Notes under the pieces: generated by a model
Told to the model about the DNA's origin: nothing
What the model saw: only the letters and a program-made list of their open reading frames with translations
Database searches by the model: none
Made by a program: the position numbers and the translations under genes
Assembly: GCA_013822725.1 (NCBI GenBank)
Contig: PNKX01000006.1
Span: 125,549 to 189,548, forward strand
Origin: Pirellula sp.
Lineage (GTDB): Bacteria; Planctomycetota; Planctomycetia; Pirellulales; Lacipirellulaceae
Direction of reading: 5' to 3'
Length of the DNA stretch: 64,000 bases
Shown: positions 2,047-44,422 of the stretch, piece by piece
How the letters are laid out: each line of letters begins with the position of its first letter
Numbering within the stretch: the stretch's first letter is position 1

Positions 2047-2469
2047 TTAGCGCGACCGCATGACCAATCCAAGCACCACGCCAGTGATCAGCCCGGCGCC
2101 GAAACCAACAGCAAGCGATTCGATCGGACGCTGCTGCACCATTCGCTCCGTCTGCACATAGCCGCCGCGGACGGCGTCGCTTGCGCGGCCACGCACATCA
2201 CCGAGCGATTCGGCAGCGCTGCCGGCATAGCCGCGGACTGCTTCGGCGACCTTGCTGACGCCTGAAGCGCCATTTGCGGTTACTTCGCTGAGATACCGCT
2301 CCACTTGATCGCGGGCTTCGCCGGTCTTCTTCTGGATCATGCCGACCAACTGGTCGACGCTGCCGCGAGCCTTTTGCAGATCGTCGTTGGTGAGTTCACC
2401 CCACCGCTCGTGAAGCTTCCCTTTGATTTCGTTCCAGTTGCCTTCCAGCGTTTGTTGATTCAATTTCAT
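2047..2469 (-). CDS. CsbD-family stress protein fused to a DUF883-like membrane anchor
   Basis: 140 residues with two parts. Residues 1-60 are a CsbD domain (LEGNWNEIKGKLHERWGELT, then LVGMIQKKTGEARDQVE), a general-stress family of about 60 residues in most bacteria. Residues 65-140 form a helix and end in QQRPIESLAVGFGAGLITG and VVLGLVMRSR, the glycine-rich anchor of DUF883 proteins. The fusion would tether CsbD to the inner membrane. A longer frame reaches 2553, but the ATG at 2469 starts exactly at the CsbD consensus and has GGATG upstream. A near-perfect sigma-54 promoter lies 85-100 bp upstream on the same strand. It appears to be the first gene of the operon running to 294. Confidence 0.9.
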   Translation of the reverse strand: MKLNQQTLEGNWNEIKGKLHERWGELTNDDLQKARGSVDQLVGMIQKKTGEARDQVERYLSEVTANGASGVSKVAEAVRGYAGSAAESLGDVRGRASDAVRGGYVQTERMVQQRPIESLAVGFGAGLITGVVLGLVMRSR

Positions 2470-2553
2470 CACAGCATCCTTTGTGCGTGGTGTCGTATTT
2501 CGTATCCCCGTAGGCCTGAGCGGGAATGCTCTGAGGCCATGGTGAAGATACAT

Positions 2554-2569
2554 TGCAAGGTCTGTGCCA
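2554..2569 (-). promoter_or_regulatory. Sigma-54 (-24/-12) promoter of the CsbD operon
   Basis: Read on the minus strand: TGGCAC-AGACC-TTGCA. Against TGGCACG-N4-TTGCW the only mismatch is A for G at the seventh position, and the invariant GG and GC are exactly 10 nt apart. The predicted start near 2543 gives a leader of about 75 nt before the CsbD ATG at 2469. The upstream side (2570-2882) lies between this and a plus-strand candidate and contains CAATCG-N6-CGATTG at 2712-2729, a possible activator site. Confidence 0.75.
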
Positions 2570-2882
2570 GAACCTGGCCTGAGGGGTGCAATACCCTGCT
2601 AACCCTCTTAAAGCATCTAGGGAGTTCCTTGCGCTGAGGATAGTCCTGGCACGAGGAAGAAACAGCGAACTCGAACAACGGTGCGGCCACGGCAACTGGG
2701 CAGGAGGCTACCAATCGGAGCGGCGATTGATCTGTTGACGACCATTCACTCGCCACGGCTTCCGAGGCTTTCGCGAAGCCCCTTGGGCCAACGTCGGATC
2801 CAGAGGGGAAAAACCGCGGTGATTGGCCGCACTCGCCATCCGCAGGCTGCTGGCCAGGCTGGAGACGTCGGAGGGAGAAGAA

Positions 2883-2898
2883 TGGCACGGAGAATGCA
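2883..2898 (+). promoter_or_regulatory. Candidate sigma-54 promoter facing the BON gene
   Basis: TGGCACG-GAGA-ATGCA: complete -24 box and the -12 GC at the right distance (GG-N10-GC), with ATGC replacing TTGC. It points toward the structured region 2991-3084 and the BON gene and would start RNA near 2909. Confidence 0.5.
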
Positions 2899-2908
2899 GC
2901 GGTTTTCA

Positions 2909-3084
2909 TCACCAAGCCAGCGACGGCAGCGGCCTCGGCTGCTGCGTCTGATCGGCCATCAGCACCCCCGCGGGACAGAATCACGGAAGCGCCGACGGGC
3001 GAAAAACCATACCGGCTACAATGTCGTTGCTCTGGTGTCCGCAACGTCGTTAGGCAAGTAGGGTTGTCGCCCGTCGGCTTTTTT
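2909..3084 (+). ncRNA. Candidate small RNA ending in a long terminator-like stem
   Basis: Perfect 12-nt arms at 2991-3002 (GCCGACGGGCGA) and 3067-3078 (TCGCCCGTCGGC) are followed directly by T6 at 3079-3084. The 64-nt interior is itself ordered: AACC 3005-3008 faces GGTT 3062-3065, and GTTGC 3026-3030 faces GCAAC 3041-3045 with a 10-nt loop. A near-consensus sigma-54 promoter lies about 95 nt upstream of the structure, so the 5' end near 2909 is inferred from it. It could be a free sRNA of about 175 nt or a leader attenuator for the BON/permease genes. It matches no RNA family that I recognise. Confidence 0.4.
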
Positions 3085-3127
3085 CAGGCGCATTTTCTGT
3101 CGCACCGCCACCGATAAAGTTGCCGCA

Positions 3128-3478
3128 ATGCCAGATGCTCTTCTCACGACGAATTCGCACCGTCGTCTCAACGTAAGTTCGCACGCCAATTCCGAACGAG
3201 GTGACTTGCAGCAAGTCCAGTCAGGTCGCCGACGAACCGATGGCCAGCCTTCTGGGCTGGACCGTTGCCTCGACGAACTCCGCGGGCGCGTCGTCCAGGC
3301 GCTGGCGTCGCTCGGCTACCCGTCGCTGGTTGCCGTCGACTGCGAAGTCGCTGCGGACCGCATAGTTCTCTCCGGCGCCTTGCCGAGCTATCATCTCAAG
3401 CAGATGGCTCAGGTGGCCGCTCTCCGCGTCGCTGGCCCGGGTAAGGTCGACAATCGCGTCGTCGTCACATCGCTCTAA
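3128..3478 (+). CDS. BON-domain protein
   Basis: 116 residues. The first 50 or so are polar and probably disordered. The rest (about 47-116, VVQALASLGYPSL..VDCEVAADRIVLSGALPSYHLKQMAQ..VDNRVVVTSL) has the alpha-beta pattern of a BON domain: a short helix, a strand with the invariant glycine of VLSG, a second helix, and the closing V-D-N-x-V-V strand. BON domains bind phospholipid surfaces and occur in osmotic-stress proteins such as OsmY. No signal peptide is seen, so the protein may be cytoplasmic. No strong Shine-Dalgarno is visible and the start is uncertain. It lies 32 nt before the permease gene and is probably cotranscribed with it. Confidence 0.75.
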   Translation: MPDALLTTNSHRRLNVSSHANSERGDLQQVQSGRRRTDGQPSGLDRCLDELRGRVVQALASLGYPSLVAVDCEVAADRIVLSGALPSYHLKQMAQVAALRVAGPGKVDNRVVVTSL

Positions 3479-3510
3479 GGGAACGTCGGCGTCGCTCGCC
3501 GACGCCATGC

Positions 3511-5427
3511 ATGGCTCGAACTCGCTCGTCTGGTTCCGGATCCCCGCTGCTGACGTTGGCGTCGATCGTCGTCGCGATCGCTGCGCTCCATCTCGCGAAA
3601 GAGATCCTGGTGCCGTTGGCGCTCGCGATCTTCTTGAGCTTCTTGCTCACGCCATTGGCCGACCGGTTGGAAGGCTGGGGGTTGGGACGCATTCCATCGG
3701 TGATCTCGGTTGTCGCCGTCACGTTTGTGATCTTGGGGTTCCTCGGTTGGATCGTCACGAGCCAACTCGTCGACTTGAGCGTTCAACTGCCGGATTGGAA
3801 AGACGAGATCGTCGAAAAGATCCAAGAGCTGAAGCCCGACTCCGAGGTGTTGGATAAGGTGACGCAGACTATTGATGAAGTCTCCAAGAAGGTCAGCGAG
3901 GAGAAGCCAGCAAAGCCCGAAGAGCCAGATGCCGCAGGGTCCAAGGCCAATGAATCGGCGGATGGTTCGGCTGGCGAGCCGTCCGAAGAGACAGGCTTAC
4001 TCGATCGACTCACCCGTCAGATCAAAGCGCCAGCGAAGCAGGAGCCGATGGACGTTCGCGTCGTCGGCTTGCCGCCGTCGCCTTTGGAGCAGATTCAGAA
4101 CTGGCTCGGCCCCATCGTCGCCCCCCTCTCAGCAGCCGGCATCGCCGTCGTGCTCGTTATCTTTATCCTCCTCAAGCGCGAAGACCAGCGGAATCGCCTC
4201 CTGCAGTTGTTCGGCGCCTCGAACCTCCATGCTTCCACGGAAGCGTTGACCGACGTTACCGAGCGGGTGAGCAAGTATCTGCGGATGCAATTTCTCATCA
4301 ACGCCGGCTACGGAATCTGCGTGGGAGTCGGGTTGGCCGCGATTGGCGTGCCAAGCGCGATCACCTGGGGGGTGCTGAGCTTCTCGCTCCGCTTCTTGCC
4401 GTACATCGGTCCCTGGCTCTCGGCGATCATGCCGCTGACCGTCTCCCTCGCGACGTCGACGGGATGGACGGAGCCGATGTTCGTGGCGGGGTTGTTCGTT
4501 GTGCTCGAATTGCTGGTGAACAATGTGGCGGAACCGATGCTCTACGGTCGTAGCACTGGCGTCTCGGGCGTGGGGGTGATCATCGCGGCGATCTTTTGGA
4601 CGTGGATTTGGGGACCTATCGGGCTCGTGCTGGCCATGCCGCTGACGGTGTGCGTCGTGGTGATGGCGAAGTACATTCCCGGGATCCAATTCCTGTCCGT
4701 ATTGCTGGGCGATCAATCGGCCCTATCGGCGCCGGAGCGGATTTACCAACGGTTACTCGCCGGCGATTGCGATGAGGCGGCCGAACATGCCGGCGCGGCG
4801 GTCGCCGGGGGAACGCTCGCCGAGACGTTCGACGAAGGGGTCATTCCGGCGTTGATCATGGCCGAGAACGATCGCCACGGCGGTCGTTTGCACGACGAGC
4901 AAGCGGCGCTAGTGCATGAAACCGCGCGGGACCTGGTCGACGAGCTCGGCGAACTTTCCGCGGAACGGGAGGCCGCCGTCGCCGCGAAAGTGGTGGACGA
5001 GCAACCTCTTTCCGACCGTGCGCCGCTGAGAGTTCTCTGCATTCCGTTGCGGGACCAGGCGGACGACATTGGTTCCGCGATGCTGGGGAGGTTACTGGTT
5101 GGCGAGGGAGTTGTCGTTGAGCAGGGCGCCGTCTCGGCGCTCACCAGCGAACTGGTCGACTCGGTGGAGTCGCTGCACGTCGACCTGGTCATCTTGTCCA
5201 TCATTCCGCCGTTGCCGCCGCGAAGCAGCCGGCTGCTCTGCCGGCGTTTACACGATCGGTATCCGCAGCTGCCTGTCGTGATCGGCTATTGGGGAGGCGG
5301 TAAGGCCGAGGAGATTCGCCGGCGGTTGGCGGACGACCAGTCGGAGATCGTCACGACGCTTGGCGCCGCGGTGGAGCGGGTGCGGGCGATTGCGGCGCGG
5401 CCGACGTTGGCAGAGAAGGCGAGTTGA
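3511..5427 (+). CDS. AI-2E/PerM-family permease with a long C-terminal cytoplasmic domain
   Basis: 638 residues, against about 350-370 for the family. Residues 8-92 hold three transmembrane helices including ILVPLALAIFLSFLLTPLAD. A charged loop rich in Glu, Lys and Ala follows (about 125-170). The second membrane block spans about 195-400 and includes GVPSAITWGVLSFSLRFLPYIGPWLSAI, conserved in AI-2E_transport proteins. Beyond 400 comes a soluble region of about 230 residues whose last 130 (LRVLCIPLRDQADDIGSAML..VDLVILSIIPP..PVVIGYWGG) look like a Rossmann/B12-binding-type fold without the DxHxxG motif. Family substrates include AI-2, and some members act as sodium-proton antiporters, so the substrate cannot be assigned. 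It follows the BON gene closely. Confidence 0.85.
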   Translation: MARTRSSGSGSPLLTLASIVVAIAALHLAKEILVPLALAIFLSFLLTPLADRLEGWGLGRIPSVISVVAVTFVILGFLGWIVTSQLVDLSVQLPDWKDEIVEKIQELKPDSEVLDKVTQTIDEVSKKVSEEKPAKPEEPDAAGSKANESADGSAGEPSEETGLLDRLTRQIKAPAKQEPMDVRVVGLPPSPLEQIQNWLGPIVAPLSAAGIAVVLVIFILLKREDQRNRLLQLFGASNLHASTEALTDVTERVSKYLRMQFLINAGYGICVGVGLAAIGVPSAITWGVLSFSLRFLPYIGPWLSAIMPLTVSLATSTGWTEPMFVAGLFVVLELLVNNVAEPMLYGRSTGVSGVGVIIAAIFWTWIWGPIGLVLAMPLTVCVVVMAKYIPGIQFLSVLLGDQSALSAPERIYQRLLAGDCDEAAEHAGAAVAGGTLAETFDEGVIPALIMAENDRHGGRLHDEQAALVHETARDLVDELGELSAEREAAVAAKVVDEQPLSDRAPLRVLCIPLRDQADDIGSAMLGRLLVGEGVVVEQGAVSALTSELVDSVESLHVDLVILSIIPPLPPRSSRLLCRRLHDRYPQLPVVIGYWGGGKAEEIRRRLADDQSEIVTTLGAAVERVRAIAARPTLAEKAS

Positions 5428-6899: not shown

Positions 6900-6915
6900 C
6901 GCAAGTGACGTGCCA
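6900..6915 (-). promoter_or_regulatory. Sigma-54 promoter of the 47-residue/CsbD/lipoprotein operon
   Basis: On the minus strand TGGCACG-TCAC-TTGCG: the full TGGCACG box and TTGC with exact GG-N10-GC spacing; only the last position is not A or T. The predicted start is near 6889 and the leader to the ATG at 6785 is about 105 nt. Confidence 0.75.
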
Positions 6916-10716: not shown

Positions 10717-10909
10717 CAGGCCCAACGGGCCGGCAGTTCATAGCCAGGGGCGCCAGCCCCTGGTCAACCGTCGTCGTTTAATTGTAAGCCCCAACGGGGC
10801 GGCAGTGGCTCGCAGCGCACTGTCGCTCCGTTGGAGCTTCGGTTCATGTTGTCACCGCGTCTCCAGGGGCTGGCGCCCCTGGCTATTGACGGTCGCCCCG
10901 TTGGGGCTC
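10717..10909. repeat. Family B composite palindromic repeat, copy 1
   Basis: Outer arms carry AGGCCCAACGGGCC and GCCCCGTTGGGGC. Inside, AGCCAGGGGCGCCAGCCCCT at 10742 faces its inverted copy near 10863-10883, and a central AGCCCCAACGGGGCGGC motif occurs near 10787. It occupies most of the gap between the PSD1 and DUF1501 genes. Confidence 0.75.
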
Positions 10910-39578: not shown

Positions 39579-39779
39579 TTGAGGCCCGCAGGGCCGACAG
39601 GTAATAGCCGGGGGCGTGAGCCCCCGGTTTCCGTTCGCAAGGAAACCAAGCCCCAACGGGGCGATACTTATTTCCGGATTACGACAGGACTGCCGCCCCC
39701 TCGGGGCTCCCATTGGTTACCTGATCGCTGTCCGGGGGCTTCCGCCCCCGGCTATTAAATTTCGCCCCTTTGGGGCTTC
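39579..39779. repeat. Family B composite palindromic repeat, copy 2
   Basis: Begins TTGAGGCCCGCAGGGCCGAC, continues with ATAGCCGGGGGCGTGAGCCC, a central AAGCCCCAACGGGGCGATAC, and the inverted counterparts CCGGGGGCTTCCGCCCCCGG and GCCCCTTTGGGGC. Same architecture as the copies at 10717 and 53662. The flanks of the gap (39489-39904) hold only this repeat and a tandem repeat. Confidence 0.75.
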
Positions 39780-44064: not shown

Positions 44065-44422
44065 CTATCAGTCTCCTGCGAAAGGGAAAAGTGCGAGTTG
44101 AAGTATAGCTTTCACGCGACGAGTTTGGATGGCGATCGCCGAGGAGGCCTAACGTCCGTGCCGGGCCGCCTCGACGTCAATCGCCGGATTCAGCCTGCGT
44201 GGGGGTGCATTTTGTTGTTGGAGCCGCCGAGATCCTGGATCGATCCATCAAACTCGGGCGCGACGGTCGATCGCTCCGCCGGGAAAGCTGAGCAATGGGC
44301 GTGCCAGCCGACGAAAGTAGCCGCGTTGGAGCTATGCGATGCCCAATTCAGGTCGACGGAACTCGGGTAACCCGCACTGAAACGATTTGCTATCTTTTGG
44401 AACTCTCGGGAGGAAAAACATC

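Follow-up and report, generated by a model that had tools for sequence, protein, structure and literature searches.

Relation to described regulatory RNAs

Among described systems, the element analyzed here comes closest to the generic leaders in which a terminator is controlled by a trans-acting factor (attenuators). With these it shares a 5' hairpin and U-tract directly upstream of genes, as well as conserved unpaired segments that are candidate recognition elements. It differs from them in having no conserved antiterminator and no known ligand or protein, in its sigma-54 promoter, and in a very long terminator hairpin that covaries. A further likeness is to small RNAs in the sigma-54 (RpoN) circuits of other bacteria, for example the flagellar sRNAs of Campylobacter jejuni, which are short RNAs tied to an RpoN-dependent circuit (PMC11187230); the present element belongs to another phylum, occurs without detected Hfq and may be the leader of BON and permease genes.

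Regulatory RNAs of planctomycetes seem to be little described, with few papers in the literature that we searched. One candidate cis-regulatory RNA from these bacteria is the Rhodopirellula-1 motif, which is listed for Planctomycetes and Proteobacteria without an Rfam number (PMC2864571, Table 1); the present element was found only within one genus. In a survey of Planctomycetia, sigma-54 control was predicted for several stress and envelope functions, such as those of MscS channels and universal stress proteins (PMC12316311), and this predicted regulon fits the setting of the hairpin locus.

A conserved hairpin downstream of a candidate sigma-54 promoter

The locus lies in a 64,000-nucleotide stretch of planctomycete DNA, here called the window, whose forward-strand positions are used throughout. 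The initial annotation had placed a -24/-12 element at 2883-2898, followed by perfect 12-nt arms around 64 nt and by T6, and all of these were found. The promoter match is TGGCACGGAGAATGCA (TGGCACG-GAGA-ATGCA), and from its GC at 2896-2897 a transcription start near 2909 is predicted. In the window sequence, the arms (2991-3002 and 3067-3078) pair perfectly at a spacing of exactly 64 nt, with T6 at 3079-3084, directly 3' of this basal stem. Two nested pairings reported between the arms are also present; they proved to belong to this one long hairpin, as its distal part. The annotation needs correction in one point: the conserved unit begins with the flank at 2982, and the 73 nt before it (2909-2981) are a variable leader without conservation.

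The conserved element comprises 103 nt (2982-3084). It starts with the flank CACGGAAG (2982-2989), which is single-stranded or pairs weakly with the U-tract, and continues with a hairpin (2991-3078) made up of the perfect 12-bp basal stem, an imperfect distal stem and a 10-nt apical loop, UCUGGUGUCC (3031-3040), before ending in the terminator-like U6. The hairpin (folded as 2984-3086) has a predicted energy of -51.6 kcal/mol (z = -6.2 relative to dinucleotide shuffles, with 0 of 200 shuffles as good), and the predicted transcript region 2909-3090 has a folding z of -3.4. This stretch very probably encodes a folded RNA.

Five genomes carry the element, namely the window genome, G002, G003 (Lacipirellula limnantheis I41, NZ_CP036339), G004 and G005. 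Their genus is Lacipirellula or a group containing it, with G001 as the sixth member. The annotation had suggested looking for conservation and compensatory base changes in related genomes: element and promoter are kept in five of the six genus members, and compensatory changes are present in the distal stem. All five share without change the flank, the loop with the GC that follows it, and 11 of the 12 basal pairs (GCCGACGGGCG/CGCCCGUCGGC), amid intergenic sequence that has diverged. The U-tract is U-rich in four species and weak (AUUUGC) in G002.

The promoter is likewise conserved amid otherwise diverged sequence, with TGGCA(C/T)-N6-TGC upstream of the hairpin in 5/5 genomes and 23-82 nt from the predicted start to the flank. 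Predicted RNA lengths in the five genomes are 176, 173, 126, 181 and 182 nt. A conserved -24/-12 element at fixed spacing points to a sigma-54-dependent transcript, and the proposal of a sigma-54-driven small RNA or leader/attenuator before the BON and permease genes is supported at this level.

Covariation of the distal stem

The distal stem varies in sequence and keeps its pairing. Each species has 20-22 arm-arm pairs in it despite widely differing arms, and the distal helices of G005 (UUUGAAAGCC/GGCUUUCAAA and UCGAUCC/GGAUCGA) bear little likeness to those of the window. In an alignment of the five sequences fitted to a covariance model, 11 of 31 pairs are changed on both sides and 94.7% of cells pair; none of 500 shuffles reached any of the measures, in a setting where the fitted alignment leans towards structure and the shuffles ignore relatedness. 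A MAFFT alignment of four sequences gave five pairs changed on both sides, a value reached by 6 of 500 shuffles. In both alignments, the signal was abolished by sliding the pairing partners by 1-3 columns.

Folding the distal arms and loop separately gave mixed scores, from z +1.4 (G002) to -5.6 (G005), and we therefore regard the covariation test as the better evidence. The distal arms of G002 alone pair no better than shuffled arms (z -0.2). The compensatory changes are those expected of a conserved structured RNA, as judged from the aligned sequences.

Distribution and the improbable reading as an ordinary terminator

The element occurs once per genome, in the same place before a BON-domain gene and an AI-2E-family permease gene. 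At the DNA level, a search through 98 related genomes identified three further genus members with 87%, 84% and 75% identity, their matches limited almost exactly to 2982-3084. The divergent fifth copy, in G005 (59.5 bits), was recovered with a covariance model based on four sequences. The sixth member, G001, whose genome is 68% complete, gave no match. In a search for the exact flank-plus-loop pattern, each of the five genomes contained it once, whereas 392 further genomes of the order did not contain it. Covariance-model searches in samples of the family, order and class, run with stricter filters that may miss weak members, gave no convincing further member. In line with the annotation, which named no matching RNA family, our Rfam search yielded nothing at the gathering threshold, nor at E<=5 on 2500-3600. 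The element is apparently an uncatalogued, narrowly distributed structured RNA of one genus.

Simple palindromes with GCCGACGGGC/GCCCGTCGGC-like stems recur in five genomes of the same order (G009, G016, G033, G037 and G177), as they would if the hairpin were an ordinary intrinsic terminator or REP-like palindrome with no special regulatory role. We consider this improbable: those palindromes lack the flank, loop and distal stem; flank and loop of our element are invariant in 5/5 genomes amid diverged neighboring DNA; its 10-nt stem (spacer 10-40 nt) is not repeated within the genus, save for one match in G002; and it comes after a promoter, not after a gene.

These GCCGACGGGC/GCCCGTCGGC-like palindromes, single hairpins at loci L072, L069, L071, L070 and L093, form a possible REP family and a possible origin of the basal stem.

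Neighboring genes

The BON-domain gene (3128-3478, forward strand; Pfam PF04972) starts 49 nt 3' of the stem in the window, and its orthologue has the same place and orientation in 5/5 genomes, starting 41-96 nt downstream of the stem. It is followed by the permease gene (3511-5427, forward strand; Pfam PF01594), whose genus orthologues are 61-85% identical. No sigma-54 match was found between hairpin and BON gene in the window genome, G002, G003 or G004; promoters of other types may be present there.

Nine more distant permease loci have neither the hairpin motifs nor a convincing BON gene. A sigma-54 match precedes the permease in two distant homologues that lack the hairpin, at distances of 140 and 57 nt, which suggests that the permease itself can be under a promoter of this kind. 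On the other side of the locus, a csbD-like gene (2047-2469, reverse strand; Pfam PF05532) is divergently oriented and has its own candidate sigma-54 promoter, TGGCACAGACCTTGCA (2554-2569, reverse strand), with matches in 5/5 genomes. The csbD and BON-permease pairing may represent a sigma-54 module. The C-terminal extension of the permease has a weak match to a B12-binding domain, below the curated cut-off.

A leader terminator as the preferred reading

From promoter motif, fold, conservation, covariation and position, all read from sequence, we infer a sigma-54-driven leader RNA whose conserved terminator hairpin limits read-through into the BON and permease genes and releases an RNA of 126-182 nt. 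We put the probability of this reading at roughly one half. Sigma-54 holoenzyme, aided by an enhancer-binding activator, would transcribe rightwards from about 2909, and the nascent RNA at 2982-3084 would fold into a long hairpin whose GC-rich base and U-tract act as an intrinsic terminator. Many transcripts would end here as an RNA of about 176 nt in the window (126-182 nt across species), and the remaining ones would extend into BON and permease. The level of read-through would be set by a factor acting in trans, most probably a protein, that recognizes the single-stranded flank and loop; the invariance of these two is most simply explained in this way. The GC-rich stem with adjoining U-tract, found in 4/5 genomes, indicates termination; G002, with no good U-tract, is the exception.

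Classical attenuation is unlikely because the leader offers no competing fold. Leader:stem pairing amounts to -13 to -24 kcal/mol versus -43 to -59 kcal/mol for the hairpin in all five genomes, and the basal stem is retained in each predicted full-transcript fold. A two-state attenuator or riboswitch thus finds no support, as the leader is not conserved and contains no conserved, mutually exclusive antiterminator in any of the five genomes.

The general CsrA core is ANGGA. A special case of the leader-terminator reading would have a CsrA paralogue bind the ACGGA of the flank and control termination or translation. The flank sequence CACGGA agrees with the core, and each genus genome (G000-G005) has 5-8 CsrA-family matches; there is, however, a single conserved GGA site and none in the loop, and we regard such putative binding as quite unlikely.

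The main rival to the leader terminator is a stand-alone, trans-acting sRNA (about 126-182 nt) made from the same sigma-54 promoter and ended by its own terminator, whose loop or flank would bind mRNAs or a protein, with BON and permease transcribed separately. It would account for the promoter, the terminator-like end in 4/5 genomes, the invariant and unpaired loop and flank, and the fact that the element is more constrained in sequence than the intergenic DNA around it. It is harder to reconcile with a single copy per genome that always lies directly before BON. Synteny within one genus fits a leader and an independent sRNA alike. Exact complements of the full loop were not found at any locus common to the species, short seeds being still possible, and no complementary sites for loop or flank with conserved position were found in the csbD and BON-permease genes. 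Hfq was detected in none of the six genus genomes, several of which are incomplete. Given the unshared loop complement, the undetected Hfq and the CsrA-family matches, we prefer, with modest confidence, a leader terminator that works with a partner protein to a trans sRNA of the classical type, which we rate as possible but rather doubtful.

The hairpin RNA has its promoter and a clear fold; it offers two invariant motifs as candidate recognition sites, and the operon beside it is defined. It may tentatively be seen as a planctomycete RNA switch, in which a regulator bound by the invariant loop and flank of a sigma-54-driven terminator hairpin gates a membrane-associated operon in bacteria with several CsrA paralogues and no detected Hfq. 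Since one carrier, Lacipirellula limnantheis I41, is a named strain whose chromosome has been sequenced, the element is directly testable.

Rejected readings and other observations in the window

A coding function was rejected, since the length differences of the element between species are not multiples of three and none of the frames is kept in all five genomes. An RNA on the reverse strand was also dismissed: U-tract and promoter both suit the forward strand, and reverse model matches reflect the palindrome. One copy per genome argues against a mobile or repeated element. A pseudoknot joining the flank (CGGA) to the loop (UCCG) is implausible from geometry, as a long helix holds the two apart, one at each end. 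Weak model matches in G009, G016, G033, G037, G012, G283 and G177 lack loop and flank and were set aside as generic palindromes or chance. Pattern matches in Nonomuraea, Nitrospinae and bin.10 lack the rest of the element and were put down to chance.

Other near-consensus sigma-54 matches lie at 44291-44306 and 6900-6915, both on the reverse strand. The window also contains four matches to Acido-Lenti-1 (RF01687), at 10718-10908 and 39582-39777, arranged head to head in two doublets at a distance of about 150 nt, and GCCCC/GGGGC palindromes lie in between. These doublets look like REP/BIME-type repeats rather than independent sRNAs.
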